Below are positions 2,581 to 25,562 of a stretch of 64,000 nucleotides of DNA, one piece after another. The position numbers and the translations under genes are program-made. The DNA comes from Microcaldota archaeon (GTDB lineage: Archaea > Micrarchaeota > Micrarchaeia > Anstonellales > Bilamarchaeaceae). How positions within the stretch are numbered: the first letter of the stretch is position 1; each line of letters opens with the position of its first letter. The notes under the pieces were generated by a model, which did not search any database, had not been told where the DNA came from, and worked only from the letters and a program-made list of their open reading frames with translations. Location of the stretch: positions 1 through 64,000 of the forward strand of contig JAFGCC010000014.1 in assembly GCA_016932815.1 (NCBI GenBank), in the 5' to 3' direction.

Positions 2581-2604
2581 AATGTATATTTTTGTGCGCT
2601 AAAG

Positions 2605-2618: not shown

Positions 2619-2648
2619 TTTGCTCAAAGCACATGGGGGAGGATTAAG

Positions 2649-8317: not shown

Positions 8318-9129
8318 GGATTGAAAAGATGTTTTCCGCTCTTAAGGAGCGGGGAGTTGGGGCGTTCATGCCTTATGTGTGCTGCGGGGACCCATCTGCT
8401 GAATTCACGCTTGCGCTAATTGAAAAACTCGTTGGGAATGGCGCGGACGCAATTGAGCTTGGGATTCCCTTTTCCGACCCGATTGCGGATGGGAAAACTA
8501 TCCAGGCGGCATCTTCGCGGGCCCTGGATTCCGGGATGACGCCCCTTAAGGCGCTGGGGATTGTTTCGGAGGTTAGGAAGCGCGGGATTGAGGTTCCAAT
8601 ATTGATTATGGCTTATTACAATATCGTTTATGCAAATGGGGGGCGGGAGTTCCTAAAGAAGGTTAAGGAAGCGGGCGCGGACGGGATGATTGTTCCAGAT
8701 GCCCCGCTTGAGGAATCTTCTGAACTGCGGAAGCTGTGCAGTGACGCGGGGATTGATTTGATTTATTTTATCACTCCCAACTGCCCGGATTCGCGGCTTA
8801 AGGAGATTGCCTCTGTTGCAAAGGGATTCCTGTATGCGGTTGCGGTCCTGGGGATTACAGGGGAGAGGGAGGTTGTTGCACCCGAGGCGATTGCGCTAGT
8901 TGAGCGTGCAAGGAAGGTTACTGCTTTGCCGGTCGTTGTCGGATTCGGGATTTCAAAGCCTTCGCACGCAACTTCGCTCATGCGCGCTGGAGGTTCTGGG
9001 ATTATTGTGGGAAGCGCAATCGTTAATCTATATTCCAAACACGTTGGGGAGGAGTTCGATTCCACTGAGGCGTTGGAGGAGATTGGGGAATTCGCAAAAA
9101 GCATGAAGGGTGCGCTTTCTGGCAAGTGA
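8314..9129 (+). CDS. trpA: Tryptophan synthase alpha chain
   Basis: Encodes 271 residues of the TIM-barrel subunit that cleaves indole-3-glycerol phosphate and channels indole to TrpB. Key segments are [18 protein letters not shown] with the catalytic Glu and Asp, [31 protein letters not shown]-like GITGERE, and [10 protein letters not shown] with [11 protein letters not shown] for phosphate. It is the last gene of the trp operon and converges on the six-paralogue zincin cluster with 27 bp between the stops. Confidence 0.97.
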
Positions 9130-10347: not shown

Positions 10348-10363
10348 GGTTGTGCCTCGCACG

Positions 10364-11521
10364 TTATTGGCCGAAGATTATCCTTTCCGCCTTGTGTACC
10401 TCCTTTTGGGAAGAGTGCCCCAGCCTGAAAGAGAACTCCCTGCAAATCTGTTTTAGCACCCCGGATGCCGCAGCATGTATTTCATTGGGGCTTGCTGCGG
10501 CATATTTGAGGACTGCGTTGAAATTGAGCAGGGGATTTCCGCCGCACTCGCCAAAATAGGGATTGAATCTCTCAATGAAATGCGTTATGCCCCGGAAATG
10601 CGGGTCAGAGCCTCCCTTCATGTAATTGGAGAGTATCTCTCCCAGATACAAATGCGGAAGCCTTGCAAGTGATATTGCAAATGCGTATGCGAAGAATTCG
10701 TGGGAACTTTTCGAAGCTTCCACCTTGGAGCCAAGGAGCACGTGCCCAAGCTCGTGGAGCAGCGTATAATGTGCCATTAAATCCAGCAGGTTCCCCTTCC
10801 CCTGGTTCTTTGCGGAATGATATGCGAACTTGCACATGAATTCCGCAGCGTCAATCGGAGTTTTCATGGAGCCTGCAAGGGATGCCGGGAGGGTGCCATT
10901 GAAAATCGGCAAATCCCCGTTGTCGCTGGCAAATGGCCCCTCCAGGATTTGCGGCGGAACCTTGAACCTCATTATCGGAATGTAATCGCGCATCTTCTCT
11001 AGCATATCCAAGAAGATGCATACGTGCCTGCGGGAGAATGGCGAATCGATTGTCTGCATCCCTCCGATATACGACTTGGACATGTCCAACGGCATATTCC
11101 CTTCCAATGAGTGGATTTTCGTATTGGCTATGAAAAGCAATGGGGACTTTGCAAGCGAAGTGCGGAAAACTATGTCCCCGGACAAGACAGTATTTATCGC
11201 GGGGGAAAAGCGGGTGAATATTCCTTCATTTTGCATTTGCTCCTCGAAGGGGCTTACGCGCTCCCCATAAAACCCGGCAAATTCATGCAGATTGGTTCCC
11301 GGGCAGATGGGCGCGTGCTTTAAGTGCCTCTTTGCAGGGCTTCCCAGATTACTGTGCGCCGCGAAAAACTCTTTTCTCGCTTCCGAGAGTTTTTTTGCAT
11401 ATTTGCCAGAAGGCGGAGGCTGCCTGCGAAATTCCCGCAACCTTGCGGAGATGCTTTTTTGCTCCGGGGCAGGAGGCTGGCTCCGGAACGCCCTATCCAG
11501 CATTGCGCGCATCTTTCCCAT
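10364..11521 (-). CDS. HExxH zincin-like paralogue 2
   Basis: Encodes 385 residues with HELGH at 256-260 and the candidate third ligand Glu275 in SHEFFAYA. The shared N-terminal motif is SISARLREFRRQ, the central block is GDIVFRTSLAKSPLLFIANT, then HVCIFLDM, and the tail is AERIIFGQ. The open frame reaches 11650 but that would overlap paralogue 3. The ATG at 11521 lies seven bases after GGGTGA, whose TGA is the stop of paralogue 3, so translation is probably coupled. The junction to paralogue 1 is different and uses GCGAGG. Sequence divergence from its neighbours is large outside the motifs, so the duplications are old. Confidence 0.8.
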   Translation of the reverse strand: MGKMRAMLDRAFRSQPPAPEQKSISARLREFRRQPPPSGKYAKKLSEARKEFFAAHSNLGSPAKRHLKHAPICPGTNLHEFAGFYGERVSPFEEQMQNEGIFTRFSPAINTVLSGDIVFRTSLAKSPLLFIANTKIHSLEGNMPLDMSKSYIGGMQTIDSPFSRRHVCIFLDMLEKMRDYIPIMRFKVPPQILEGPFASDNGDLPIFNGTLPASLAGSMKTPIDAAEFMCKFAYHSAKNQGKGNLLDLMAHYTLLHELGHVLLGSKVEASKSSHEFFAYAFAISLARLPHLYLGEILSNYMKGGSDPHFRGITHFIERFNPYFGECGGNPLLNFNAVLKYAAASPNEIHAAASGVLKQICREFSFRLGHSSQKEVHKAERIIFGQ

Positions 11522-11528
11522 TTTCAAA

Positions 11529-12668
11529 TCACCCAAAAACCGCTTCCTCCGCATCCTTTGCGGCCCCTTCCAGGAATCCTTCCTGGCTTTTTCCCAGCTC
11601 AGTGCAGACGCCCTCCAGTATTGCAGAGGAAATAGTGCGCACCTGCCCAACAGGCATGCACAGGTACCTGGGCAATGAATCGATTAGGGAGCGGGGCCCA
11701 AGCTCTTCTTTTATCCCAAGGCGCCTGTTGAACTCCCCTACGAACTCTTTTGCGGCGTGGGTGTGGGGACCTTTGGGGGAGTAGAGGTACAAAGCCGCCT
11801 GCTTAACCAATTCCGCTAGGTAGAGCCGCGTGGACTTGGAAGCGCTAAGCGAAGATGAATACGCGAAGAATTCATCTACGGCTGTTGGCATCGCCCTATC
11901 CGGGATTAGCTTCCTCAATAGCATATGCCCGGCCTCGTGCATTAGCGAATCGAAAACGAACTTGTCTAGGAGGGAATCCCTATCCTCCCCAAGCAGGGAG
12001 TGCTGGTAGAGCATTTCTGCCAATAGCGATGGGAGCCTCGGGTAGGAAAATCCTGCATCGATTAATCCCTCAACTGCCTGCCGGATGTGGAACCCTGCGA
12101 TTTTTTCGTTGAGGGGGGTTTCCGTATGCAGGAACTCTAATGGGTTCTTTTCCGCGCGCTCAAAATGGCCGAGAATCTTCTTCTCTGCCTGGTCTGCGAA
12201 AACGAATATTCTCTGGGGAGCGGGGGGGAACCCCGGGGAGAATGCCGCGGCAATCAGCCGCCTTTGGAGGAGCGAGCCAAGAGCCGTTTCCCTGGCATTG
12301 AGTTTCGTGTTTGCAACGAAAGCCGTTTCGCACCCGCATATTGCGGACTGGCGGATTATGTCCCCGAAGGTTACCGCATTCCCCACAAGTTCAAAAGAGA
12401 GGAAAACCCCTTTCTCCGCCATTTCATTTTCCAGGGGGAAGAGCACGTCCGCATAATACTGCAGGAGGGATTCCGCCCTGGATTCCCATTCCCTGAATGC
12501 GGGGCTGCCCTCTTTTGCCCCTGGTTTTGGGCGGCGGGAAAACGGGTGCCCAAGCTCCTTGTTCCTGCGGAAGAATGCCTCCCTTGCTTCAGCGAGCGCC
12601 TTTGCATTGAGCTTGGATGGGGAGGGCTTTTCCCTTGATTTTTTTAGCAGCAAAGATATTGGCGCCAT
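11529..12668 (-). CDS. HExxH zincin-like paralogue 3
   Basis: Encodes 379 residues with HEAGH at 244-248 and Glu266 in VDEFFAYS as the likely third zinc ligand. The N terminus (ISLLLKKSREKPSPSKLNAK) is a shorter version of the family motif. The central block is FGDIIRQSAICGCETAFVANT, followed by RIFVFADQ, and the tail is EEAVFG. The start at 12668 is chosen because it sits seven bases after GGGTGA, the end of paralogue 4; earlier in-frame ATGs lie inside that gene. It is part of the minus-strand operon driven from about 15920. Function is unknown beyond probable zinc-dependent hydrolysis. Confidence 0.8.
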   Translation of the reverse strand: MAPISLLLKKSREKPSPSKLNAKALAEAREAFFRRNKELGHPFSRRPKPGAKEGSPAFREWESRAESLLQYYADVLFPLENEMAEKGVFLSFELVGNAVTFGDIIRQSAICGCETAFVANTKLNARETALGSLLQRRLIAAAFSPGFPPAPQRIFVFADQAEKKILGHFERAEKNPLEFLHTETPLNEKIAGFHIRQAVEGLIDAGFSYPRLPSLLAEMLYQHSLLGEDRDSLLDKFVFDSLMHEAGHMLLRKLIPDRAMPTAVDEFFAYSSSLSASKSTRLYLAELVKQAALYLYSPKGPHTHAAKEFVGEFNRRLGIKEELGPRSLIDSLPRYLCMPVGQVRTISSAILEGVCTELGKSQEGFLEGAAKDAEEAVFG

Positions 12669-12675
12669 TTTTGCT

Positions 12676-13680
12676 TCACCCATAGATAATCCTCCTTGCA
12701 GGCTCAACTACCTGCTCATGCATATTTTCCAGGCTCACTCCCAGGCAGGCGCAGAGGCTTCCGAGAACGCCCGAAGCCGCGGCGCGTATTTCCCCTGCCG
12801 GGACTGATGCGCAGCGGATTAGGGAAGCTGCCTGCTCCTGCGTATTGGCCCAGCCCATTCCAAGGGAGGAACTCAGCTTCCCAAGGAAATCGTTTGAGCC
12901 GTAAAAATGCTCGCTGGGCCTGCGCCCTCTGGCATATACAGCGCATATCATAGAGAGGCAGATGCGCGTTTCAATTGCGTTGGGGAGGGAGAACGCGTAT
13001 GCGAAAAGCTCGGAAGTTTCCCCGGAAACCCCCTCCTTTCCTCCTAGGAGCGTGTGGCCGGTTTCGTGGAAGAGGACTTCCAGCAATGCCGCATCGAGAA
13101 GGCGGTCTTTGCCCTGGCTCTTTGCGGAAGCGTATGCGCTCCTGCACAGGTAATCCGATGCATCCTCTAGTGTGGAGATTCCGCTTTTGGGCTGGGGCGC
13201 TTTCAGGGAAAGGCCCTCTCCAAGCCTGCTTGCTGTGCGGTCTGCGAAGATGCAGATGCGCTCATAGGAGGTCCCCTTTAGGAGGGTGTGCATTCCCCTG
13301 GCCCCTCTTGGCACGGGATATTTGTCGCCCCTGCCCAGGGGGAAAACTTCGGTGTTGCTGCAAAAGAGGATTGGGCAGCCGCGTATTGAGGCGCGGTGGA
13401 AGATGTCGGCTGCAATGCCAAAGTTCCTGCTAAAGAAGAACTTGAAGAACACGCCTTTTTCCTCCATTCCTAGCTGGAGGGGAAGCACGTTTCTGTTGTG
13501 GAAGCGGTCGTAGGTTGGGGCATCGAGCACCTGCGCCTTCTTCCCGAATTCGCAAATTCCCCCGTTGCGCAGGAGGAGCCTGAAGAACTCGTTGCCCTTT
13601 GCCTTTAGTTCCTTAACGTGGGCGCGGGAGGGGGATTTTGCATTGCCGGCCTGCTTCAACATAGAAGATAGTGCTGCCAT
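12676..13680 (-). CDS. HExxH zincin-like paralogue 4
   Basis: Encodes 334 residues, the shortest of the six. HETGH at 205-209 and Glu224 in SELFAYAF form the probable zinc site. The central block ADIFHRASIRGCPILFCSNTE is nearly the family consensus and matches paralogues 5 and 6 well; RICIFADR follows, and the tail is ARRIIYG. The ATG lies seven bases after the GGGTGA that ends paralogue 5. No membrane segment or signal peptide is seen. All metal ligands are retained, so it should be active if the family is enzymatic. Confidence 0.8.
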   Translation of the reverse strand: MAALSSMLKQAGNAKSPSRAHVKELKAKGNEFFRLLLRNGGICEFGKKAQVLDAPTYDRFHNRNVLPLQLGMEEKGVFFKFFFSRNFGIAADIFHRASIRGCPILFCSNTEVFPLGRGDKYPVPRGARGMHTLLKGTSYERICIFADRTASRLGEGLSLKAPQPKSGISTLEDASDYLCRSAYASAKSQGKDRLLDAALLEVLFHETGHTLLGGKEGVSGETSELFAYAFSLPNAIETRICLSMICAVYARGRRPSEHFYGSNDFLGKLSSSLGMGWANTQEQAASLIRCASVPAGEIRAAASGVLGSLCACLGVSLENMHEQVVEPARRIIYG

Positions 13681-13687
13681 GATTAAT

Positions 13688-14794
13688 TCACCCGAAAACC
13701 GCTTTTTCTGCTTGTTCCAGGATGTTCTCCCGCATGGCCTCCAGGCTGATTGCGTGTTTTGCGCAAAGCCTGCTTATTAGTTTGTTAGCCGCCTTGCGTA
13801 TTTCCCCTGCACGCATGTTTGCAAATCCCGCAATCATCCTGGGAAATTTTCCCGAAGCTTCATCTGCCCCTGCAAGAAGCGGCTTGAGCATTGCAAAAAA
13901 ATTGCCTGCTGCAACTCTGTGGTCGATGGTTCCGCACTCATGTGCGTGCGCATCGGAAATGATGGATAAGAGTATGCGGGGCGCTTTCGCGTGTGCGAGG
14001 GAAAATGAGAATGCGAAAAGCTCGTGGAATTCCATTGGGAAATAACCGTGGCGGCAGAGCTCCATGTGGGCGCCTTCGTGGAGAAGGGTGTCGTATGCCC
14101 GGTTGTTTATTAGCTTGCCCGCGCCCATTTTGCGCGCAGAGAAATACGCGTGGTTGCGCAGGAATCCGCATGCGTATTCGAGAGCGTGCATGCGGGGAGC
14201 CTTGGGGGCGGAAACAACTGTTTCCAGCTTGTGCTCCACAGTATTCCGGATGGTGTCTGCAAAAACGCAGATTCTCTCTTTTGAGTATGCGCCCTGCCGC
14301 ACGTGCTCTCCTGTGCCCGCAACGGGCAGGGATGCCTCCGCCTCCCGGCTTATCCTGGAAAAGGACGTATTTGCGCCAAAGAAAACCGGGCACTCTTCAG
14401 TTGAATCCCGGCTAAACATTGCTTCCCCTGGGCCGCCCATTGATGCGCGGTGGAAGATGTCGCTGCTTAGCATCCGGTTGGAAGTGAAACTGAGGCTCAC
14501 GTGTATTCCCTCTTCTGCAAGCTTTGTGGTTAGGGGAAGCACGTTTTTATTGCAAAATTTCCCCATTGACTCCCAGTCGGAGATTATCAATTCGCTTCCG
14601 CACTTCCAGAGGATGTTCTTTTTTAGGAGGTAATCTGCAAAGCTGCTGAATTCGCCCTGAATCTCTTTTGCGCGGAGCTTTGAGGGAGAGGGTTTTGAAT
14701 CGAATTCCCTTAGCTTCTCTGAGAGGCTCTTAGGGCTAGGGGGAGCAGGCGCACGCCCCTGCATTTTCATTGTTCTTTTGCATGATTTTGCCAT
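13688..14794 (-). CDS. HExxH zincin-like paralogue 5
   Basis: Encodes 368 residues. Its motif reads HEGAH at 239-243, where the usual Gly before the second His is replaced by Ala, but both His and the Glu are kept, and Glu258 in FHELFAFSF supplies the third ligand. The N-terminal KSLSEKLREFDSKPSPSKL, central SDIFHRAS...CPVFFGANT, RICVFADT and tail EKAVFG follow the family plan. About 12 extra residues interrupt the central block. It starts seven bases after the GGGTGA of paralogue 6 and is co-transcribed with the others. Confidence 0.8.
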   Translation of the reverse strand: MAKSCKRTMKMQGRAPAPPSPKSLSEKLREFDSKPSPSKLRAKEIQGEFSSFADYLLKKNILWKCGSELIISDWESMGKFCNKNVLPLTTKLAEEGIHVSLSFTSNRMLSSDIFHRASMGGPGEAMFSRDSTEECPVFFGANTSFSRISREAEASLPVAGTGEHVRQGAYSKERICVFADTIRNTVEHKLETVVSAPKAPRMHALEYACGFLRNHAYFSARKMGAGKLINNRAYDTLLHEGAHMELCRHGYFPMEFHELFAFSFSLAHAKAPRILLSIISDAHAHECGTIDHRVAAGNFFAMLKPLLAGADEASGKFPRMIAGFANMRAGEIRKAANKLISRLCAKHAISLEAMRENILEQAEKAVFG

Positions 14795-14801
14795 TTTTGC
14801 C

Positions 14802-15869
14802 TCACCCGGAAACGAGCTTTTTCACCTTCTCAAAAGGATTGCCCATAAAGTCCTCTTTTGATGCTCCAAGGGATTTGCAGACTGCCCCGAATACCTCAAT
14901 TGCCGCGGAAAGAATCCTGTCCGCTGGAGCCTGGAAGTATTTGGGGATTAATGCTTCAATGGGGGAATCGCGGGCATCCTCCCCGAAAAGCCGGGAATTG
15001 CACCCTGCAACCAGTTCCGCGGAAGCACTTTTGTGGAGGCTGCTGCCATCCTGGGATGGGACTGCCATCTTGATTATATTGGCAAAATCCACGTGGGGGG
15101 ATTGCGAGTTTGCAAGCACGTATGAGAAGGCAAAGCGTTCCTGTGCGGGCGAATCCAGCGTCCATTGCGGAAACCTCCGGGTGAATGCCATGTGCCCAAG
15201 CTCGTGCGCGATATATCCAACGAGTACGTCCTCGAGCGACATTTTCTCTCCGAATGAGAAGAAATTGGACAGTGCGGAATATGCCTCTGCAAGCAATGAA
15301 GGGGGCACACCCTTGGCGGAAGGGCCGCCATAATGCCTTCCTAAGAGGGGCATCAGGGTTTCGGCGGGGATAGTATGTGCGGCATCCCCAAGGCCCTCTA
15401 TTGCCCCTCCCATTATTATGGAATTGGATTCAAGGAGCGATTCCGCCAAGTCTGCGAAGATGGCTATCCTCTCGCCCTTAATGGAATTTTCGCACGGATT
15501 GAAGATGCAGGAATAGTGTGCCGGGATTATTGTCACGTTTGGGTCCCCTGCCCCCCGGGGATTAGTGGAGATTTCCGAATTCGCAAGGAAGATGACTGGG
15601 CAGCCTTCTATCTGCGCCCTGTGGAAGATGTCCGCGGTGGTTATCGCCTCCTTCTCCCAACTAAAGGAGAACAGCACGCCCTTCTTTCCCATTTTCTCTT
15701 CTATTGCAATCAACTTTCTGGAAAATGAGCCAAGCCTTGCCGCGTCTTTTGTGTCAATCTTATCATAGGCGGAGAACACCTTATTCTTGAGCTTCGCTAA
15801 CTTCCTTGCGTGGATTTGCGTGGGGGGAGTGCCCTTGCGGAATTCGTTTAGCCTTGTGGAGATGGACAT
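14802..15869 (-). CDS. HExxH zincin-like paralogue 6 (first gene of the array)
   Basis: Encodes 355 residues. HELGH at 222-226 and Glu244 in QERFAFSY form the likely zinc site. The N-terminal SISTRLNEFRKGTPPTQIHARKL and central TADIFHRAQIEGCPVIFLANSE are close to the family consensus; RIAIFADL follows, and the tail is KKLVSG. It is promoter-proximal: a TATA box at 15918-15927 and a GCGAGG ribosome site seven bases before the ATG at 15869 set the start. The open frame extends to 16106 across the divergent aromatic promoter, which makes the longer start unlikely. Confidence 0.8.
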   Translation of the reverse strand: MSISTRLNEFRKGTPPTQIHARKLAKLKNKVFSAYDKIDTKDAARLGSFSRKLIAIEEKMGKKGVLFSFSWEKEAITTADIFHRAQIEGCPVIFLANSEISTNPRGAGDPNVTIIPAHYSCIFNPCENSIKGERIAIFADLAESLLESNSIIMGGAIEGLGDAAHTIPAETLMPLLGRHYGGPSAKGVPPSLLAEAYSALSNFFSFGEKMSLEDVLVGYIAHELGHMAFTRRFPQWTLDSPAQERFAFSYVLANSQSPHVDFANIIKMAVPSQDGSSLHKSASAELVAGCNSRLFGEDARDSPIEALIPKYFQAPADRILSAAIEVFGAVCKSLGASKEDFMGNPFEKVKKLVSG

Positions 15870-15917
15870 TTGGGTTCCTCGCATAACTGTTACAGTATGT
15901 GTATTGGGATGAGAAAT

Positions 15918-15927
15918 GTTTATAAAG
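15918..15927 (-). promoter_or_regulatory. TATA box for the six-zincin operon
   Basis: Minus-strand CTTTATAAAC lies about 30 bp upstream of a predicted start near 15895. It is followed by GCGAGG and the ATG of paralogue 6. Confidence 0.6.
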
Positions 15928-16050
15928 GAGGGCTTTTGTGGAGAATACGGGCAAAAGCGGGGGGATATTTGCAAAAAAGCGGATTGGGGCGGCCCGGGGG
16001 CCCTGGCGGCGGGGGTTTCGCCTTTGCTCGGGGCAACGAGAGAGGCAGGT

Positions 16051-16058
16051 TTTATAAT
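16051..16058 (+). promoter_or_regulatory. TATA box for the aromatic operon
   Basis: TTTATAAT predicts transcription start near 16078-16082. That leaves a leader of about 205 nt before the DAHP synthase ATG at 16288, unusually long for this genome, where many genes are leaderless. Confidence 0.65.
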
Positions 16059-16077
16059 CTTTCCTTGCACAAATAAA

Positions 16078-16205
16078 ACCAAGGAAAAAAGTGGTTTTAA
16101 TGGCAATGGCTAGGAAAAACCGGGAATCCTGGTTCGCATTCTCCAGCTTTAGCTATTGCCCGGAAAACCGCTGAGAGATTTTTTCCTTGGTCTTGGTGGT
16201 TTTCC
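16078..16205 (+). promoter_or_regulatory. Candidate attenuator leader RNA of the aromatic operon
   Basis: The leader holds several mutually exclusive pairings. ACCAAGGAAAAAA (16078-16090) is perfectly complementary over 13 bp to TTTTTTCCTTGGT (16179-16191). AAAACCA (16075-16081) can instead pair with TGGTTTT (16092-16098). AACCGGG (16118-16124) forms a 7-pair hairpin with CCTGGTT (16128-16134), burying the Trp codon. GGAAAACC (16162-16169) pairs with GGTTTTCC (16198-16205). A run of six T (16179-16184), a typical archaeal termination signal, comes five bases after the leader ORF stop. The layout resembles ribosome-dependent attenuators of bacteria. The mechanism is inferred. Confidence 0.65.
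16100..16174 (+). CDS. Aromatic leader peptide, candidate attenuation sensor
   Basis: A 24-codon ORF lies between the promoter and DAHP synthase, starting about 20 nt after the predicted transcription start. Residues 11-19 read WFAFSSFSY, so all three aromatic amino acids appear in a nine-residue run (one Trp, three Phe, one Tyr). These are exactly the end products of the pathway the operon serves. The UGA stop at 16172-16174 is followed five bases later by six T. Upstream, GTGG at 16091-16094 is only a weak ribosome site. In bacteria, peptides of this kind sense charged tRNA during translation of trp, phe and his leaders. Here the same logic is proposed for an archaeon. No protein product is expected to persist. 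Confidence 0.75.
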   Translation: MAMARKNRESWFAFSSFSYCPENR

Positions 16206-16287
16206 CGCTTGATGTGATTTAGAGTAATCTTTGCAAAAAACTGGAGAAGAAAAAAGAAATGATTGGAAAAACTAGAGATGGTAAAAA

Positions 16288-17265
16288 ATGAAGGGATTGA
16301 AACTTGCCGCATTAAACGGCGAAGGAAGGACGATTGTGCGCGTGGGGGATGCCAAAGTGGGAGAGGGGCTTACCGTTATAGCCGGCCCGTGCGCAGTTGA
16401 GAGCGAAGAGCAGCTCCTGGATACCGCGAGGGCGGTAAAGGAAGCCGGGGCGGATATGCTGCGCGGAGGCGCATTCAAGCCGCGCACTTCCCCGTATGCT
16501 TTCCAGGGGCTTGGGCTAAAAGGGTTGAAACTGCTTGAAAAAGCAAGGGATGAAACCGGGCTCCCTATTGTGACCGAAGTTCTGGACACCAGGGACGTAT
16601 CCTGGGTTTGCGAATACGCGGACGTGCTCCAGATTGGGGCTAGGAACATGCAGAATTTCTCGCTCCTAAAGGAAGTTGGGAAAATGAATAAGCCCATACT
16701 CCTAAAGAGGGGGATGAATTCGACTATCAGCGAGTGGCTAAACTGCGCGGAATACATCCTAAACGACGGGAACCCGGGCGTAATACTCTGCGAGAGGGGA
16801 ATCCGCACATTCGAAACCTACACGCGGAACACGCTGGACTTGAGTGCGGTTCCCGCAGTAAAGGGGCTAACCCACCTTCCGGTGATTGTGGACCCCACTC
16901 ATGCGACCGGCAGGAAGGAGCTAATTGAGCCTATGGCGGTTGCGGGAGTAGCCGTAGGCGCAGACGGGCTTATTGTGGAAGTGCACAACAATCCGGAGGC
17001 TGCTCTCTGCGACAAGGACCAGGCGCTAACACCCCCACAATTTAATAGCCTAATTGGGAAAGCAAGAAGGATGCGGAAGTTCATAGAGGAACTTAACGGT
17101 GCGGATGGAAGCGCCCCGGATAGTGCGAATGAGGGGAGGGCTTCTGGCGATTGTGCTTCCGGGGTGCAAACTCCCAAAAAGGCGGGCGAAAAGGGGAAGC
17201 CCGCGGATTCTTCTTCCAAAACGGATGAAGCGCAGGGATGCGGATGCTGCGGGGGATGCGAATGA
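16288..17265 (+). CDS. aroF: 3-deoxy-7-phosphoheptulonate (DAHP) synthase, type I-beta-like
   Basis: Encodes 325 residues and condenses PEP with erythrose-4-phosphate, the entry step to all aromatic amino acids. The KdsA/AroF-like barrel shows [82 protein letters not shown] and [13 protein letters not shown]. There is no ACT or chorismate-mutase domain, so allosteric control is not apparent. This fits control at the leader RNA. After residue 275 comes a tail of about 50 residues, Ser/Gly/Lys-rich, ending CGCCGGCE, which could bind metal. It overlaps aroB by ATGA. Confidence 0.94.
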
Positions 17266-18284
17266 GGATTCTTGAGGTGGAAGCCAACAGGGCGACCAAA
17301 TGCAGGATTCTCTTGGGAGAATCAATAAGCAGGCTAAAAGAATACTGCGGGGGCAGGAGAACAATTATCGTTGCCGACCCCATGATAGTAAAGCTATACG
17401 GGGAGAAGCTCAAGGGTTTTGAAATCGTAGAAACGGGAATGGGGGAAGAGGAGAAAACCCTTGAGACCGTGGAAAAACTGTATTCGCGGTTTTTGGAGCT
17501 TGGGTTGGACCGGAACTCCTTTGTAGTGGGGATAGGCGGCGGGATAGCCTGCGACATTGCGGGCTTTGCAGCTTCCACCTACCTTAGGGGAATCGGGTTC
17601 GGGTTTGCCCCCACCACCCTGCTTGCGCAGGTGGATGCTAGCGTGGGCGGAAAGAACGGGGTCAATTACAGGGGATACAAGAACCTGATTGGGACTTTCA
17701 ACCAGCCCGAATTCGTGCTCTGTGATTTTGAGCTGCTAAAGACGCTTCCGCCACGGCAGGTTTCCTGCGGCTTTGCGGAAAACATAAAGTGCGCGGCGAT
17801 TGCGAATCGGGAACTGTTTGAATACCTGGAAGGAAAGGGCGAAGAACTCCTCAAGCTTGAGCGCCCGGTTATAGAGAAGGCGGTTTACGATTCTTTGGCG
17901 GTAAAAGCGGGAATCGTTGCGCGCGATGAGAGGGAGCAGGGGGAGAGGAGGAAGCTCAATTTCGGGCACACCCTTGGGCACGCTTACGAGAAGGTCCTGG
18001 GGATTCCGCATGGGGAGGCAATCAGCATAGGAATGGTTGCGGCTGCGAAGCTTTCGGTGCGCAGGGGGATGCTAAAGCAGGGGGAGGCAGACAGGCTGGA
18101 AAACCTCCTTGCTGCAGTCGGGCTCCCAACTAGCGCAGAAGCATCCAAGGATGCGCTGCTGGATGCCATGCTTAAGGACAAAAAGCGCGAGGAAGCGAAA
18201 ATAAACTTCGTTCTCCTTCGCGGGCTAGGCGACGCGCAGGTCGTTGAGATGGGGATGGAAGAGCTGGAGGCGCTTCTTGGATGA
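17262..18284 (+). CDS. aroB: 3-dehydroquinate synthase
   Basis: Encodes 340 residues and converts DAHP to 3-dehydroquinate using NAD and zinc. The fold-specific segments are [21 protein letters not shown] for [47 protein letters not shown] and the zinc-binding [15 protein letters not shown] and [10 protein letters not shown]. This is the bacterial/canonical AroB rather than the archaeal alternative (AroB-prime route), consistent with the DAHP synthase in front. The start at 17262 overlaps the DAHP synthase stop as ATGA; the longer open frame is rejected because it lies in the coding tail upstream. Confidence 0.95.
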
Positions 18285-19030
18285 TATGTGCTAGCATAGG
18301 CGAGAGCAGTATTGAAGATTGCATTAGCGCATTGGGAAAAGTGGGGTTTGCGGAAGTGCGGCTGGACTCCATTTCCGGCATAGGCGTTGGGGATGTGCGC
18401 AGGATATTCTCGCTTTCAAGTTCCGGAAAGAAGCTTATTGCAACCTGCAGGAAGGAAGCCTGCGCAGGATGCGGTATTGCACAAGATGGGGGAAGCGCAG
18501 GTTCTGGCAGGGGAGCCCATGATTGTGCCGGAGGAAGGAGCGCCGGGAAAATCCTTGATGATTCTCTTAGGAAGGAACTCCTCCTTGCCGCAATAGATTC
18601 CGGGGCGGCATACGTGGATTTGGAAGTGGAGATGGCGGAGGGGATGCGCAAGGAGATTGCCGATAGGGCAAAAGAGAGAGGATGCAAACTGATAGTTTCC
18701 TTCCACGATTTTAGCGGCACCCCGAAGCGGGAGGAGCTTGGCAAAATCGTGGAGAGGTGCTTCTCCTGCGGCGCGGACGTTGCGAAAATCGCCTGCATGG
18801 TTGATTCCCAGCAGGACAATGCGAGGCTGCTTGGGTTGCTTGGGGAATGGAAGGGGCTAATAGTAATAGGGATGGGCAAGAAAGGCAGGAGCACCAGGGT
18901 ATTGGCTCCGCTTCTTGGGGCAGAATTCACTTTCGCTTCCCTTGGGGGGAAAACCGCCCCGGGGCAGATGGAACTTGGAAAAATGAGAGAGATTATAGAG
19001 AGAATAGAAGATGAATTGGAGACGGATTGA
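18281..19030 (+). CDS. aroD: 3-dehydroquinate dehydratase, type I
   Basis: Encodes 249 residues and dehydrates 3-dehydroquinate through a Schiff base. FAEVRLDSI near the N terminus, LIVSFHDFSGTP with the catalytic His, VAKIACMV with the Schiff-base Lys, and SLGGKTAPGQM at the C terminus are typical. An extra Gly/Ser/Cys-rich stretch (CAGCG...GGSAGSGRG...CAGG, about residues 61-88) interrupts the barrel after the second strand and is not expected in the family. ATGA overlap with aroB; it meets aroE-aroK at a TTGA overlap or a few bases later. Confidence 0.93.
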   Translation: MICASIGESSIEDCISALGKVGFAEVRLDSISGIGVGDVRRIFSLSSSGKKLIATCRKEACAGCGIAQDGGSAGSGRGAHDCAGGRSAGKILDDSLRKELLLAAIDSGAAYVDLEVEMAEGMRKEIADRAKERGCKLIVSFHDFSGTPKREELGKIVERCFSCGADVAKIACMVDSQQDNARLLGLLGEWKGLIVIGMGKKGRSTRVLAPLLGAEFTFASLGGKTAPGQMELGKMREIIERIEDELETD

Positions 19031-19032
19031 AA

Positions 19033-20367
19033 ATGGAAAACGAACCTACCATGGGAACGGAAATATTTGCGGTTGCGGGAAACCCCGTGCTGCATAGCAG
19101 GAGCCCGCAGCTTATGAACTGCGCATTTGAGTCCCTGGGAATTGACGCGGTATATACGAGGATGCTAGCCGGAAGCGGGGAAGAGGCGGTGAGGACCGCA
19201 AAAGAAATCGGGCTTGGAGGGCTGAATATAACCTCGCCTTTCAAGGGGGAGGTCATTGAGCACCTAGATGAAGTTAGTACGCAAGCGCGCAAATTGGGGG
19301 CTGTGAACACTATTGTTTTTGAGGGGGATTCTGCCTCCGGGCACAATACGGATTATCTTGGGGCAATCGGGGCGCTGGAAAACGCATCCATCGGGATTAG
19401 GGGGAAGAAGGCGGTTGTTCTCGGAGCCGGGGGGGCGGGGAGGGCTGCCGCATTCGGCCTGCACTCCGAAGGCGCAAAAGCCACCCTCCTGAATCGGGAT
19501 GCGCAAAAAGCGCAGGAGGCGGCGGATGCGATAGGCTGCGCTTTTGGGGGCATGGGCACCCTCGCAGAGGAACTGCTTGATTCTGACATCGTGGTTTCCT
19601 GCCTCCCTAGGGGGCTAAACCTCATTGAGGCGCAGATGCCCAAAGAGGGAGCGGTTCTCATGGATGCCAATTACGGGGAATCCCCCCTGGCGGGCATTGC
19701 GCAGAAAGCCAACTGCACGTTCATTGATGGGCGCGAATGGCTGCTTGCGCAGGCTGCGCCCTCCTTTGAGCTTTTTGTGAGCAAGATTGCGCCCATAGAA
19801 GCGATGCGGGAGGCTGTTTACGCGGATTTGCCCGAAGAGGGAGTGTGGAAGGGAACGGGCAACATAGCCCTAATCGGGTTTATGGGCGTAGGAAAAAGCG
19901 CTGTTGCAAGGGAGCTGTCAGTAGAGAGCGGGAAGGAGCTAACCGACGTTGATTTGGAAATAGAGAAGCGTGCCGGAGCGAGCATAAAGCACATCTTCTC
20001 CGAATTCGGGGAGGATGAATTCCGCTCCATGGAGCGCGAAGAGATTGCGAGGGTTGGGCAAGCCCGCAACAAGGTAATAGATTGCGGCGGAGGAGCCGTG
20101 CTTGATGAGGGGAACGTGGAAATACTGCGCAAGAGTTCGGTTCCGGTGTGGCTGTGGGCGAGGCCTGAGACCGCGCTATCACGGCTCGGTGAAGAATCCG
20201 GAAGGCCCCTTTTGGATGTGGAAGACAGGATGGGGCTTGCCAGGAAACTTAGTTCGGGGCGCAGGGGGAAATACGCGAAAACCGCGCAGATGATTATAAG
20301 CAGCGAAGGAAGGAGCGCTGCGGAAGTTGCAGGGATGATATTGCATGAAACAGGTAAATCCATCTGA
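19033..20367 (+). CDS. aroE-aroK: Shikimate dehydrogenase-shikimate kinase fusion
   Basis: Encodes 444 residues with two catalytic domains. Residues about 5-270 are shikimate dehydrogenase: NPVLHSRSPQLMN, GLNITSPFKGEVI, AVNTIV, HNTDYLGA, VVLGAGGAGRAAAFGL. Residues about 275-444 are a bacterial-type P-loop shikimate kinase: IALIGFMGVGKSAVAREL, DVDLEIEKRAG, FRSMEREEI, VIDCGGGAVL, and RPLL as the lid. Most archaea use an unrelated GHMP-family shikimate kinase, so the kinase domain suggests acquisition from bacteria. The ATG at 19033 is preferred to an in-frame TTG at 19027. It overlaps aroA by 23 bases. Confidence 0.93.
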   Translation: MENEPTMGTEIFAVAGNPVLHSRSPQLMNCAFESLGIDAVYTRMLAGSGEEAVRTAKEIGLGGLNITSPFKGEVIEHLDEVSTQARKLGAVNTIVFEGDSASGHNTDYLGAIGALENASIGIRGKKAVVLGAGGAGRAAAFGLHSEGAKATLLNRDAQKAQEAADAIGCAFGGMGTLAEELLDSDIVVSCLPRGLNLIEAQMPKEGAVLMDANYGESPLAGIAQKANCTFIDGREWLLAQAAPSFELFVSKIAPIEAMREAVYADLPEEGVWKGTGNIALIGFMGVGKSAVARELSVESGKELTDVDLEIEKRAGASIKHIFSEFGEDEFRSMEREEIARVGQARNKVIDCGGGAVLDEGNVEILRKSSVPVWLWARPETALSRLGEESGRPLLDVEDRMGLARKLSSGRRGKYAKTAQMIISSEGRSAAEVAGMILHETGKSI

Positions 20368-21601
20368 GGTTTCCGGGGAAATTGCCGCACCGGCCTCAAA
20401 GAGCATGATGCAGAGGGCTGTAGCCGCGGCCATACTCTCGCGCGGGACTACGGAGATACTAAACCCCTCTTTTTGCGAAGACTGCGAGGCCGCTTTGGGC
20501 ATTGCGAAGGCTCTTGGGGCGAAAGTGCGCAAGGAGAACGGGGGAGTTTTGATTGAGAGCCGGGGCATCGTTTCTTCTCCGCCATCTAGGGAATTGGACT
20601 GCGGGGAATCCGGAACCTGCATCAGGATGTTTGCGCCCATTGCGGGGCTCTATGAAGAGGAGTTGGTTCTTTCCGGGCGGGGCTCTCTTATGTCCCGTCC
20701 CGTTGGGATGGTAAAGGATGCGCTCCTGGAGATTGGCGCGCGCGTTGGGACTGCCAAGGGATACGCGCCAATCAAGGTGCGCGGGCCAATAAACTCCGCG
20801 CACTTTGCAATAGACTGCTCGGAGACTTCACAGCTCCTAAGCGGGCTGCTAATGGCGCTTCCTTTGTGCGAGGGGGATTCCTCAATAGAGGCGCGCAATT
20901 TGAAGAGCTCGCCCTATGTGGACATGACTATTTCCCTGCTTGGGCATTTCGGGGTAAAAGTTGAGCGGGATGGGGAGCATTTTGAGATAATGGGCGGGCA
21001 GAAATACCATCCATCAAGCTATACTGTTGAAGGCGACTGGTCTTCTGCCTCGTTCCTGTTTGTTGCAGGGGCGGTTTCCGGCTCGGTTACCGTTTTGGGC
21101 CTGGATTCGGGTTCCTTGCAGGGGGATAAGAGGATACTTGAGGTCCTGGGGAAGGCCGGGGCGAAAGTGGAATCTTCGGATGGGGCGGTTTTGGTTGAAA
21201 AGGGCGCGCTCATGGGATTTGAGTTTGATGCAAGCGACTGCCCGGACTTGTTCCCCCCGCTTGTCGCGCTAGCCTGCAATTGTTCTGGGAAAAGCGTGAT
21301 TCTGGGTGTTAGGAGGCTGCTTGGGAAAGAGAGCAACCGTGCTGCGGCACTCGTTTCCGAATTCGGGAAGCTGGGGGCTAAAATCAGGGTTGCGGGGGAC
21401 GCAATTGAGATTGAAGGCGGGGCTAAGCTTTCCGGAGGGGAAGTGGATTCGCATTCGGACCATAGGATTGCGATGGCGTGCGCGGTTGCTGCCCTTAATT
21501 GCAGCGGGAGCGTGCGCATCCTTAATGCGGAATGCGTCTCCAAATCGTACCCCTCGTTCTTTGAGGATTTGGAAAAACTGGCGGAGGGCAAGGGCAAATG
21601 A
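20345..21601 (+). CDS. aroA: 5-enolpyruvylshikimate-3-phosphate synthase
   Basis: Encodes 418 residues and transfers enolpyruvyl from PEP to shikimate-3-phosphate. Typical segments are IAAPASKSMMQRAVAAA, LDCGESGTCIRMFAPIA, LSGRGSLMSRPVGM, DCSETSQLLSGLLMALP, GDWSSASFLFVAGA, DCPDLFPPLVALA and DSHSDHRIAMACAVAAL. The start codon lies inside the end of aroE-aroK (23-base overlap), which is long for this operon but required by the N-terminal conserved segment. It is cytosolic, with no insertions seen. Confidence 0.95.
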   Translation: MKQVNPSEVSGEIAAPASKSMMQRAVAAAILSRGTTEILNPSFCEDCEAALGIAKALGAKVRKENGGVLIESRGIVSSPPSRELDCGESGTCIRMFAPIAGLYEEELVLSGRGSLMSRPVGMVKDALLEIGARVGTAKGYAPIKVRGPINSAHFAIDCSETSQLLSGLLMALPLCEGDSSIEARNLKSSPYVDMTISLLGHFGVKVERDGEHFEIMGGQKYHPSSYTVEGDWSSASFLFVAGAVSGSVTVLGLDSGSLQGDKRILEVLGKAGAKVESSDGAVLVEKGALMGFEFDASDCPDLFPPLVALACNCSGKSVILGVRRLLGKESNRAAALVSEFGKLGAKIRVAGDAIEIEGGAKLSGGEVDSHSDHRIAMACAVAALNCSGSVRILNAECVSKSYPSFFEDLEKLAEGKGK

Positions 21602-21638
21602 AGGCCATCTGGCAGGGCGTTGTTAAACGGTGAGGCAA

Positions 21639-22655
21639 ATGAACACTATTGGAAGGATGTTTCGGGTAAGCGTGCTAGGCGAATCGCACGGGAAGTGCGT
21701 GGGGGCACTTATAGACGGTTGCCCTGCGGGGCTTGAGTTTCCATCTGCATTAATTGAAGCGGAGCTTGGGAGGCGCAAGAGCGGGGCGAAGGGCACCACC
21801 GCGCGCAGGGAATCCGATGAGCCCATGGTAATGAGCGGGGTTTTCAACGGGAAGACCACCGGTGCGCCAATATTAATATTGTTTGAGAATGCGGATGCGG
21901 ATTCTTCTTCTTATGAGAAATTGAAAAATACCCCTCGGCCTTCGCACGCGGATTTTGCCTCCATGAAAAAGTATGGAAGGTTCGCGGATTACCGCGGGGG
22001 CGGGCACTTCTCCGGCAGGCTTACTGCGGGGATTGTTGCCGCGGGCGCTATTGCGAAATCCCTGCTTTCTAAGATGGAGGTTCGTGCTCACGTAATTGAG
22101 GCGGGCGGAGTTAAGATTAATGGGGAGCCCATGGAGGATTCCGGGTTCGTGGATGTTTTGGATTCCGCAATCGAGGAGGGGGATTCTTTGGGCGCGATAG
22201 TAGAGTGCAGGGTTTCCGGGGTTCCGGCCGGGCTTGGGGAGCCGTTTTTTGATTCCCTAGAATCCGCGATTTCCCATGTGGCATTCTCTCTTCCCGGGAT
22301 TAAGGGGGTTGAGTTTGGGGCGGGATTTTCCTGCGCCAGGATGAGGGGGAGCGAATTCAACGATGCGATTGTGGATGCTTCTGGAAAGACTTCAACTAAC
22401 AATTCGGGAGGGATTAACGGCGGGATTGGCAACTCCAACGAGCTTGTGTTCCGCGTTGCGGTGCGGCCTGCTGCAAGCATAAATAAATTGCAGGAAACCG
22501 TGGATTTGGAAACCGGGAAGAAAACGGAAATATCAATCGGGGGAAGGCACGATGCGTGCATAGCGCTGCGGGTTCCGGTGGTGCTTGAAGCTGCCTGCGC
22601 GATTGTGCTCCTGGACATGATGCTGCTTGAAGGAAAGATGAAGAGGGTGGTTTGA
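21639..22655 (+). CDS. aroC: Chorismate synthase
   Basis: Encodes 338 residues and makes chorismate from EPSP with reduced FMN. The start NTIGRMFRVSVLGESHGKCVGA, then RRKSGAKGTTARRESDEP, FSGRLTAGIVAAGAIAK, and GGINGGIGNSNELVFRVAVRP are typical, as is RHDAC near the C terminus. The ATG at 21639 is chosen because GGTGAGG at 21629-21635 is a good ribosome site. The 37-bp gap after aroA is the widest inside the operon. The gene supplies chorismate to both TrpE and PheA. Confidence 0.95.
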   Translation: MNTIGRMFRVSVLGESHGKCVGALIDGCPAGLEFPSALIEAELGRRKSGAKGTTARRESDEPMVMSGVFNGKTTGAPILILFENADADSSSYEKLKNTPRPSHADFASMKKYGRFADYRGGGHFSGRLTAGIVAAGAIAKSLLSKMEVRAHVIEAGGVKINGEPMEDSGFVDVLDSAIEEGDSLGAIVECRVSGVPAGLGEPFFDSLESAISHVAFSLPGIKGVEFGAGFSCARMRGSEFNDAIVDASGKTSTNNSGGINGGIGNSNELVFRVAVRPAASINKLQETVDLETGKKTEISIGGRHDACIALRVPVVLEAACAIVLLDMMLLEGKMKRVV

Positions 22656-22656
22656 G

Positions 22657-23718
22657 ATGGATGCATTAGAGAGCGTAAGAGAAAGGATTGAAGTTATTGA
22701 CGGGAAGATTCTCCGGCTCCTAAATGAGCGCATGGAGTATGCGCTGCGCACACGGAACCTAAAGAGCGGAATCGTGGATGAAAAGCGGGAGGAGGAGGTG
22801 CTAGAGAGGGTGAGGGAGAACTCCCGCGGGTTGTTGTATGCGGATTTCTCTTCCAAGCTGTTTAGGGAGATAATGGATGAGAGCAGGAAACTCCAGGGCG
22901 AATCCCTTACCCTTGTGGGCTTCCAGGGCGAGCATGGGGCTTTCGGGGAATATGCGGTAAACGAGTTCAACTCGGATTACGTCCCCCTCTCCTGCAGGGA
23001 GTTCGCGGACGTATTTGAGGGGGTTGAGAGCGGTCAGCTTGATTTGGGCATTGTGCCCGTTGAGAACTCCCTTGAGGGCGCGGTTACGCAGGTCAACGAT
23101 TTGCTAATTGAGAGGAACGTGCGCGTGGTCGGGGAAGTGAGGGTCCCGATTAAGCACTGCCTGTTGGCTGTCCCTGGTACTGACCACCGCGAAATCCGCG
23201 TCGTGTATTCGCACCCGCAGGCTCTTGCGCAATGCAGGGAGTTTATTGCGAGAAATAAATTGGGGGCGCGCCCTTTTTACGATACTGCCGGTGCGGCGAA
23301 GATGGTTTCTAAAGAGAGGAACCGTGCGAATGCGGCAATTGCCTCCGAGATTTGCGCGGAAATTTACAACCTGGATGTGATAAAGGAGAACCTTGCGGAC
23401 AACGCTTCCAATTCAACCCGCTTCCTGGTCATTTCCAAGGGCGAGGGGCCTGGGAATGGGAACAAGTGCTCCATAATATTTTCCACAAAGCACGAGGCTG
23501 GCGCATTGTTTTCGATACTAGAGCTATTTGCGGATGCGAAGATAAACCTTACCCGCATCGAGTCTAGGCCATCGCGGAAGAACGTTGGGGAGTATGCGTT
23601 CCTGCTTGACTTTTTGGGTTCGGATGCGGATTCAAAAGTGAAGGATGTGCTCTCCGCTGTTGAGGGCAAGGCTGCGATGTACAAATTCTTAGGCTGTTAT
23701 GCGGAGGCGGCGAAATGA
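22657..23718 (+). CDS. pheA: Bifunctional chorismate mutase-prephenate dehydratase with ACT domain
   Basis: Encodes 353 residues in P-protein order. Residues 1-85 are an AroQ-type chorismate mutase (RERIEVIDGKILRLLNERM). Residues about 86-270 are prephenate dehydratase (GFQGEHGAFGEYAV, GIVPVENSLEGAV, NSTRFLVI). Residues about 280-353 are an ACT domain with the IESRP motif that normally binds Phe for feedback inhibition. The operon thus has one enzyme with visible allosteric control. It starts two bases after aroC and overlaps tyrA by ATGA. Confidence 0.95.
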   Translation: MDALESVRERIEVIDGKILRLLNERMEYALRTRNLKSGIVDEKREEEVLERVRENSRGLLYADFSSKLFREIMDESRKLQGESLTLVGFQGEHGAFGEYAVNEFNSDYVPLSCREFADVFEGVESGQLDLGIVPVENSLEGAVTQVNDLLIERNVRVVGEVRVPIKHCLLAVPGTDHREIRVVYSHPQALAQCREFIARNKLGARPFYDTAGAAKMVSKERNRANAAIASEICAEIYNLDVIKENLADNASNSTRFLVISKGEGPGNGNKCSIIFSTKHEAGALFSILELFADAKINLTRIESRPSRKNVGEYAFLLDFLGSDADSKVKDVLSAVEGKAAMYKFLGCYAEAAK

Positions 23719-24497
23719 GGATTGCTGTCGTTGGAATCGGGAACATGGGCAGCTGGATTGCAAAAGAGCTTGCCAAAGATGGGAACAGCGTTGCCGTTTA
23801 CGATACCAATCCTTCGCGCACAGAAAGAATTGTTGGCGCGGATATTCGCGCATTAGGCTCAATTTCGGAGCTTGGGGATTTTTCTCCGGAGCTGCTCGTA
23901 AACGCAGTGAATATCGAGAAGACTACAGAGGTTTTCTCCGGGTTTTTGGGATTCCTTGCCCCAGGATGCATGATTGCGGATGTGGCATCTGTGAAGGGGG
24001 AACTTCCTTCATATTATGAATCTTGCGGGTTCAGCTTCGTTTCGGTGCACCCGATGTTCGGGCCGACCTTTGCAAACGTGGAGGATTTGCGCAAGGAGAA
24101 TGCGGTGATAATTTCCGAATCGTGTGATGAGGGAAAGGAGTTTTTCCGCTCGTTCTTTTCCTCTTTGGGGCTTAACGTATTTGAGTATTCTTTTTTAGAG
24201 CATGAGAGGATGATGGCGTATTCTTTGGCGCTTCCTTTTGTGTCTTCAATGGTGTTTGCCGCGTGCATGGACAAAACTGCCGTTCCGGGGACCACTTTTG
24301 CAAAGCACAAGGCGATTGCAAAGGGGCTTTTTTCAGAAGACGACCACCTGCTTGCGGAAGTCATTTTCAACCCTGAGGCTTTGTCGCAGGTGGAGAAGGT
24401 TACCGGGAGGCTTGAATATTTGAAGCACATAATCAGGGACAAGGATTTTAAGGAAGCGCAGAGATTTTTCTCAAAGCTTAGGGAGAACATGGAATAA
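23715..24497 (+). CDS. tyrA: Prephenate dehydrogenase
   Basis: Encodes 260 residues of the TyrA family and oxidatively decarboxylates prephenate. An N-terminal Rossmann motif IAVVGIGNMGSWIAKEL with YDTNPSR, then IADVASVKGEL, the substrate segment SVHPMFGPT and the helical dimerisation domain (EHERMMAYSLALPFVSS) are all visible. No ACT domain is attached, so Tyr feedback on this enzyme is not apparent. ATGA overlap with pheA. It could act on arogenate, which the sequence alone does not resolve. Confidence 0.93.
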   Translation: MRIAVVGIGNMGSWIAKELAKDGNSVAVYDTNPSRTERIVGADIRALGSISELGDFSPELLVNAVNIEKTTEVFSGFLGFLAPGCMIADVASVKGELPSYYESCGFSFVSVHPMFGPTFANVEDLRKENAVIISESCDEGKEFFRSFFSSLGLNVFEYSFLEHERMMAYSLALPFVSSMVFAACMDKTAVPGTTFAKHKAIAKGLFSEDDHLLAEVIFNPEALSQVEKVTGRLEYLKHIIRDKDFKEAQRFFSKLRENME

Positions 24498-24509
24498 GAC
24501 GGTGTGCCA

Positions 24510-25562
24510 ATGAACTTTTACGAACTAGCGGAAAAGGCTTTGCAGCTGGAGAAGGAAGGAAAGAGGATTATACGCTTGAACATCGGGGATACGGGGCTTC
24601 CCACTCCAGCCTGCGCAATTGAGGCTGCGTGCTCTTCCATGAAATCCAAGAAGGCGAAATACGTTTCCTCTGCAGGAATTCCCGAACTTCGGGAAGCAAT
24701 CGCGAAAAAGGAGGGCTGCTCTGTTGATAACGTGGTTGTGGGGCCCGGCTCAAAAGCGCTCCTTTATGGGCTCCTTAGCGTCCTTGCTTCAAAAGGGGAC
24801 AAGGTAGCTTTTCCTTCTCCATACTGGCCGGCTTATGAGATGATTTGCAAACAGCTTGGGCTTGTGCAGGTTAATTTGAAAGGCTCCATGGAATCGGACT
24901 GGGCCTTCGGGGACCTTGCCCTTGATGGGGCGAAAGTTTTCATGCTGTGCAATCCCCTGAATCCCACCAGCTCTGTTTATTCTCCATCCGTCGTGGAAAA
25001 ATGCATAAAAGAGGTTTCGGATTCCGGGGCATACATGATATTGGATGAGGCTTACAAGGAGCTTGCGTTTGAGCCGATTCCGCGCTATGAAGGGGCAATA
25101 AGGGTCCGCTCTTTTTCCAAGGAATTCAACATGGAGGGCTGGAGGCTTGGGTATATCGTTGCGCCCGAAGAGGTTGCAAAGAAAATGATTTCTTACAACC
25201 AGATTACGGCTACCTGCGTGCCGGAATTCATCCAGCGCGGGGGAATTGCCTGCCTGGAGGATTCTTCGCGGATTGTTTCTGAGAACCGTGCAATCTGGAA
25301 GAAGCGTGCTGCGGTTGCTTCCGCTGCCCTTAGTGAAGCGGGCTTTGAATTCTCGCCTCCTGCTTCGGGGATTTACGCTTTTGCAACGCATCCTGGGATT
25401 GATGATGCGTGGGAATTTGCGATTGGGATGCTCGATAAGGGGGTTGCGGTTGCACCCGGAAGCCCTTTTGGCGGGTATGACAAATATCTTAGGATTTGCT
25501 TAAGCCAGCCTGAGGAATTCCTCGAGGAAGCGATTTTGAAGATGGGCGAGGCGCTGAAGTAG
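24510..25562 (+). CDS. Class I/II aminotransferase, probable aromatic aminotransferase
   Basis: Encodes 350 residues of a fold-type I PLP enzyme. Visible motifs are IIRLNIGDTGLPTP, VVVGPGSKALLYGLL for PLP phosphate, FPSPYWPAYE, MLCNPLNPTS, MILDEAYKEL, the Schiff-base Lys in SFSKEFNMEGWRLGY and YLRICLSQP with the carboxylate Arg. As the last gene of the aromatic operon it most likely transaminates phenylpyruvate and hydroxyphenylpyruvate, though aspartate aminotransferases look alike. The ATG at 24510 follows GGTG at 24501-24504. Confidence 0.9.
   Translation: MNFYELAEKALQLEKEGKRIIRLNIGDTGLPTPACAIEAACSSMKSKKAKYVSSAGIPELREAIAKKEGCSVDNVVVGPGSKALLYGLLSVLASKGDKVAFPSPYWPAYEMICKQLGLVQVNLKGSMESDWAFGDLALDGAKVFMLCNPLNPTSSVYSPSVVEKCIKEVSDSGAYMILDEAYKELAFEPIPRYEGAIRVRSFSKEFNMEGWRLGYIVAPEEVAKKMISYNQITATCVPEFIQRGGIACLEDSSRIVSENRAIWKKRAAVASAALSEAGFEFSPPASGIYAFATHPGIDDAWEFAIGMLDKGVAVAPGSPFGGYDKYLRICLSQPEEFLEEAILKMGEALK

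Follow-up and report, generated by a model that had tools for sequence, protein, structure and literature searches.

Ribosome-mediated attenuation is a textbook mechanism of bacteria. In the 64,000-nucleotide stretch of DNA analysed here (the window), from a member of the Micrarchaeota, tiny archaea of the DPANN group, a short ORF with a run of aromatic codons lies between a TATA-like box and the first gene of an operon for aromatic amino acid biosynthesis, raising the question whether an archaeon senses its aromatic amino acids by the position of a ribosome on a leader peptide. Such a ribosome-sensing attenuator was the core of the original prediction, and it is supported by comparative evidence, namely the presence of the leader in 33 genomes, its covarying pairings and its TATA boxes. 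A leader-peptide attenuator of some kind is, in our judgement, very probable, and the sections below consider which RNA structures and which read-out it may use.

The leader ORF and its operon

The TATA box, the 24-codon ORF with five aromatic residues within a run of nine, the T6 run and the start of the DAHP synthase gene, all named in the original prediction, were confirmed in the window (Table 1). As placed from the TATA-like box, the transcript would start at about 16078-16082; most of the relatives' loci have a similar box 41 to 56 nt ahead of the leader ATG. The operon consists of nine genes, in which DAHP synthase is followed by aroB, aroD, an aroE-aroK fusion, aroA, aroC, pheA (CM-PDT-ACT), prephenate dehydrogenase and an aminotransferase, and from DAHP synthase through the last two enzymes it makes the amino acids encoded by the aromatic codons of the leader. 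The absence of an ACT domain from the DAHP synthase, also predicted, was borne out by Pfam, which detected in this protein PF00793 only, plus a weak NeuB match; the ACT domain of the operon sits in the PheA-type protein (chorismate mutase-prephenate dehydratase, 22657-23718). The DAHP synthase carries a low-complexity C-terminal extension (17085-17265) outside the enzyme domain, with a Cys/Gly cluster (GCGCCGGCE) at its end. An enzyme 77% identical to it is encoded on a Thermoplasmata-labelled contig (L058), possibly a misbinned micrarchaeal contig.

Table 1. Features of the aromatic leader and operon (positions in the window)
Feature	Position	Strand	Remarks
TATA-like box TTTATAAT	16051-16058	+	promoter element, predicted from sequence
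A-rich 5' end ACCAAGGAAAAAA	16078-16090	+	perfect 13-bp pairing with the T-run region 16179-16191
Strand 1, GTGGTTTT, SD-like	16091-16098	+	just 5' of the leader ATG; H1 lower 5' arm; pairs with 16164-16171; conserved
Leader peptide ORF MAMARKNRESWFAFSSFSYCPENR, then stop	16100-16174	+	24 codons; counterparts in 33 Micrarchaeota genomes, one partial
H1 upper 5' arm	16102-16114	+	start codon and codons 2-5; pairs with 16148-16160; compensatory changes across relatives
H1 3' arm, Phe-Ser-Tyr codons through AAAACCGC	16148-16171	+	folding, covariation
H2 5' arm GGAAAACCGCTGAGA	16162-16176	+	overlaps the leader stop; 15-bp stem with 16191-16205
T6 run (U-tract)	16179-16184	+	inside the H2 loop; candidate archaeal termination signal
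H2 3' arm TCTTGGTGGTTTTCC	16191-16205	+	matching layout in most relatives
DAHP synthase, first gene of the operon	16288..17265	+	type I-beta; TIGR01361/PRK08673
Remaining aromatic operon genes	17238..25562	+	NCBIfam, Pfam

Judged from this one genome, the aromatic run is mildly unusual and weak evidence: dinucleotide shuffles gave p = 0.045, and it is equalled by about 1% of the segments of its length (288 nt) across the 64 kb. For most of the leaders collected from relatives, the single-locus shuffle p was at or below 0.03. Conservation of the ORF and its aromatic run in relatives had been set beforehand as the check on the prediction, and both are conserved in 33 genomes with varied peptides. 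Of the 49 Micrarchaeota genomes encoding this enzyme, 32 have an aromatic leader ORF upstream of DAHP synthase, namely 15 of 16 in the same family, 10 of 14 in the rest of the order (one of them, L038, cut by a contig end) and 7 of 19 in the rest of the phylum; this recurrence before the same gene makes chance untenable. The other 17 genomes with this DAHP synthase showed no leader by the criteria used. The closest relatives are uninformative on this point, because the genomes of the same genus lack DAHP synthase. The genomes appear to be mostly metagenome-assembled, no 16S rRNA gene was found in the assembly of the window, and all of the support is comparative or computed.

Among relatives the ORF spans 18-40 codons and contains a run of Phe, Tyr and Trp, as exemplified by MTIARSRWQNFFYYFSFSYRYQENHK, MSILEGAIKVWNYFFGFFSFSYAY, MERAKPKTINYFYYSRFFWFSFFYYYFRFFWF and MTEVKANQQNWSFGFSFGYFG. 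The peptide sequences diverge and the aromatic run stays, with F, Y and W making up 19.5%, 9.3% and 3.5% of all residues, and an FSFSY motif recurs. One leader (G008) lies about 470 nt upstream of DAHP synthase, beyond hairpin-rich DNA. Palindromic hairpin-forming insertions were noted within or beside the leaders of L008, L020 and L034, in frame where they fall inside the ORF, and upstream of DAHP synthase in L016. In G019, which has no leader, GTGGTTTGAAAAATG is found immediately at the start of the DAHP synthase gene, a picture resembling loss of the leader body with retention of its initiation site; this arrangement suggests that the leader ORF is translated.

The leader type was found solely before aromatic biosynthesis operons, of which one differs in its first gene. 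In G090, a leader MRNAKVCISGNSFFFSFSYY (L210, G090:C33 11704-11850) precedes an archaeal-type shikimate operon composed of aspartokinase, semialdehyde dehydrogenase (ASADH), a DeoC/LacD-type aldolase that we read as the archaeal ADTH synthase, DHQ synthase II, aroD, aroE-aroK and an aroA-aroC fusion. This locus shares the pathway with the other leader loci and begins with a non-homologous gene. An aromatic leader MKAGNNSGKLNSGSFNLAYSFYYFSY was also noted before two DAHP synthases in a record titled Woesearchaeota (L103, about 2448-2528), where the loop of a possible hairpin contains a T4 run; if this bin is right, it suggests that the device exists in another DPANN phylum.

The window also contains a complete-looking trp operon (trpE to trpA, 2592-9129, plus strand), upstream of which a divergent ORF of 166 aa without a Pfam match lies on the minus strand (2080-2580). 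No consistent Trp or aromatic leader was found before trpE, and no convincing His-rich leader before hisG. Given the divergent ORF and the lack of a consistent Trp leader, trp may be under the control of a protein while aro is under the control of its leader. In several relatives trpE and DAHP synthase share a strand, with trpE about 5 kb further upstream. Between the two operons of the window, six tandem paralogous ORFs of about 340-430 aa each occupy 9157-15869 on the minus strand. They carry the HExxH motifs HEVGH, HELGH, HEAGH, HETGH, HEGAH and HELGH; no Pfam match was obtained for the two that were scanned. The six could represent a zinc metallopeptidase family.

Two hairpins around one shared strand

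The original prediction drew attention to mutually exclusive pairings in the leader, including the 13-bp pairing of its 5' end. That pairing is perfect here, where 16078-16090 paired with 16179-16191 extends the first hairpin into the U-tract; it proved mostly specific to this genome, however, and the conserved pairings are H1 and H2, the latter formed with 16191-16205. The 13-bp pairing was rejected as the switch, not being conserved as such in relatives, some of which carry shorter A/G-rich versions of it as read by eye.

When the leaders were folded computationally, nearly the entire ORF formed one hairpin, H1. Its 5' side comprises the SD-like GUGGUUU, the AUG and codons 2-6, and its 3' side the Ser-Phe-Ser-Tyr codons and an AACCRC located at the stop or beyond it. 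The lower stem of H1 in the window joins 16090-16098 with 16164-16172. In the alignment of 13 leaders, 85.7% of the H1 cells are paired, and both partners differ in 21 cells, compared with 6.2±2.1 for shuffled alignments (none of 500 reaching the observed value) and at most 9 when the partners were slid; one pair was seen as GC, AU, UA and CG across relatives. Pairing in H1 would also explain the codon usage of the peptides, in which 63 of 94 Ser codons are AGC. H1 is complete before the U-tract, ending 5-15 nt ahead of it.

H2 consists of GGAAAACCRC paired with the downstream GUGGUUUUCC, its paired strands being GGAAAACC/GGTTTTCC. The segment AACCRC is common to the foot of H1 and to H2, and the base of H1 and H2 are thus mutually exclusive. 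Among 23 leaders, the strands of the same leader paired more strongly than swapped partners did; neither for 1:2 nor for 2:3 did any of 20000 permutations equal the observed strength. The sequences being related, this result is supportive and should not be read as a strict probability. The covariation of H2 is modest, with 36-98 of 500 shuffles reaching the observed counts of both-sides changes, a weakness due in part to alignment registers, and in the distant leaders L158, L160, L161, L163 and L177 H2 is weak or rearranged. By calculated energies H2, once transcribed, is usually more stable than the full H1.

The loop of H2 in micrarchaeal leaders contains a T/C-rich tract, mostly T4-T7. A tract of T4 or longer was located between the 5' arm and the 3' end of H2 in 20 of 20 leaders and further downstream in three of the 20; nearly all micrarchaeal leaders inspected lacked a T-run after H2. 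An intrinsic terminator, that is, a GC hairpin with an immediately following T-run, was not found between the leader and the first gene. A loose TAGNGTNATTRATA-like motif was noticed between H2 and the DAHP synthase start, at 16218-16229 in the window and at equivalent sites in many relatives.

A covariance model of H1 and H2 built from 13 leaders recovered most of the leaders outside the training set, and its phylum-wide matches with E < 0.001 were nearly all located before DAHP synthase. The structure was not recognized by Rfam: no match reached the gathering score in 15850-16400, where weak hits had E values of at least 1.7, and over the window and the leader only tRNAs and chance hits were obtained, with no T-box or other leader family.

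Ribosome position and the fate of the U-tract

The stop of the ORF falls within the 5' arm of H2. The position of the ribosome was modelled by masking the RNA up to a footprint edge 12-17 nt past the A site. A ribosome placed where the aromatic run begins left about 15 expected H2 pairs, whereas one placed at the stop left 2.7, within a range of 2.4-3.8; the order of stall over stop was obtained in 21 of 22 loci. Starvation would thus favour H2 and sufficiency would prevent it. As the pathway should be on in starvation, H2 would be the permissive state. Since H2 usually wins once transcribed, the off state would need either a ribosome at the stop or prior formation of H1, a kinetic effect.

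Passage of polymerase over the T run upon stalling, as originally proposed, is plausible. H2 encloses this run rather than preceding it, so that the read-out is probably unlike bacterial intrinsic termination. With the U-tract lying 5' of the H2 3' arm, H2 comes too late to affect termination while polymerase is on the U-tract; its target could instead be a factor that recognizes the U-tract once the RNA has emerged. The genome encodes a full-length aCPSF1 (G000:C1, 856 bits), so that both the U-rich tract and the factor of aCPSF1/FttA-dependent termination are present. aCPSF1 is known to bind terminator U-tracts (PMC8716108), and FttA prefers U-rich RNA located 30-36 nt behind the RNA 3' end (PMC11616081), a spacing that for this U-tract would place polymerase just past the H2 3' arm.

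We propose that the attenuator senses a shortage of charged Phe-, Tyr- and possibly Trp-tRNA and governs the whole aromatic operon. On a leader that is untranslated or has just been released, H1 would form and the U-tract directly 3' of it would stay free. When aromatic amino acids are ample, a ribosome at the stop would cover the H2 5' arm, preventing H2 and leaving the U-rich stretch open to termination, for which aCPSF1/FttA acting on the U-tract of the emerging RNA is the likeliest agent, and the operon would be off. When the aromatic tRNAs are uncharged, a ribosome stalled on the run would cover the Phe-Ser-Tyr codons and block H1, setting AACCRC free; H2 would then fold, sequestering the U-tract together with the U-rich 3' arm, and transcription would proceed into the DAHP synthase gene. 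An attenuator of this kind, with stalling leading to an H2 that hides the U-tract and arrival at the stop leading to termination, is probably the best explanation overall. Within it, archaeal termination at the U-tract, either by aCPSF1/FttA or intrinsic, is the most likely read-out, and the exact U-tract read-out as set out above is put forward tentatively, at slightly less than even chance.

The same sensor might work with a bacterial-like read-out, in which H1 is the terminator hairpin upstream of the U-tract, a stalled ribosome blocks H1 during transcription of the U-tract, and H2 merely stops H1 from re-forming. The completion of H1 5-15 nt before the U-tract, and its extension into the tract through 16078-16090 in this genome, would fit such a scheme. 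A ribosome at the stop, however, would block H1 too, the T-run does not directly abut H1 at most loci, and the conservation of H2 is more than a side role would call for. Archaeal RNA polymerase, moreover, generally terminates at U-tracts with no need of a hairpin. We regard this read-out as unlikely. Somewhat less likely still is translational attenuation, in which the leader stall alters the initiation of DAHP synthase translation or the stability of the mRNA without early termination. It would accord with a single predicted transcript carrying both leader and gene and with locus L055, where the 3' arm of the hairpin runs into the SD of DAHP synthase; in most loci, however, the SD lies 40-80 nt 3' of H2 with no complementary hairpin partner seen, and translational control has no need of a conserved U-tract.

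Two further readings, neither involving a working sensor, are highly improbable. The ORF might encode a functional small hydrophobic protein, as its conservation and the recurrent FSFSY motif could imply, but its length of 18-40 aa and its composition vary freely with F, Y and W interchanging, its Ser codons are mostly AGC where paired in H1, a sign of selection on RNA, and it accompanies aromatic biosynthesis operons exclusively. The leader might equally be the remnant of a bacterial attenuator that arrived with the operon and has lost its function in archaea, given that the DAHP synthase is about 70% identical to Spirochaetia and Aminicenantes enzymes and that bacterial relatives have aromatic leader ORFs; against this stand an archaeal RNA architecture unlike the bacterial one, compensatory changes across an order and service to the archaeal-type operon of G090.

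Relation to known attenuators

The leader resembles bacterial attenuators (trp, pheA, his and ilv of Proteobacteria; Actinobacteria, PMC1262725) in that a short ORF enriched in the regulated amino acid precedes the operon for its biosynthesis, and in that the ribosome position, here by computation, selects between alternative RNA pairings. It differs from them in that no GC hairpin with a T-run terminator is present, the U-tract lying inside the loop of the alternative hairpin, in that the first arm holds the leader's own start site, and in its archaeal host with aCPSF1/FttA. Also related, and of a known bacterial kind, are the leaders of bacterial AroA-I-beta genes (L060, L073, L077, L079, L094, L099 and L110), which likewise have Phe/Tyr-rich ORFs before a homologous enzyme, about 60-70% identical to that of the window. 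Where inspected, these mostly have a terminator-like hairpin and then a T-run further downstream; in L060, L073, L094 and L099 such a hairpin with its T-run, T5 or similar, lies some tens of bases further on. The micrarchaeal covariance model gave no significant match on the bacterial leaders.

Termination by aCPSF1 (FttA) at U-tracts shares with the proposed device a U-rich termination signal, but the papers describing it (PMC8716108, PMC11616081) concern general 3'-end formation and factor-dependent termination, with no amino-acid-sensing leader peptide coupled to it. In translational attenuation of the ermC type a stalled leader ribosome also flips an RNA structure; ermC, however, senses a drug and exposes an SD, whereas the micrarchaeal codons match the end products of the pathway and the hairpins mostly lie far from the SD.

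In a search of full-text literature, which largely leaves subscription papers outside its scope and is thus not proof, no archaeal leader-peptide attenuator was found described, and the uORF4u paper names archaea in general terms only. The principle is already known; its occurrence in this domain of life and the layout of the RNA are, as far as we found, new. The leader may represent the first known archaeal leader-peptide attenuator, with a new read-out in which a stalled ribosome lets a hairpin loop hide the U-tract from the termination nuclease aCPSF1/FttA, in place of the terminator and antiterminator of bacteria, a combined claim to which we give a little under an even chance. A covarying leader of phylum-wide occurrence suggests that in archaea, too, a leader links the charging of tRNA with translation and transcription. 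Such a leader allows transcription-translation coupling in archaea to be tested on evolutionary grounds, and likewise the idea that aCPSF1/FttA is a regulated terminator beyond its housekeeping role.
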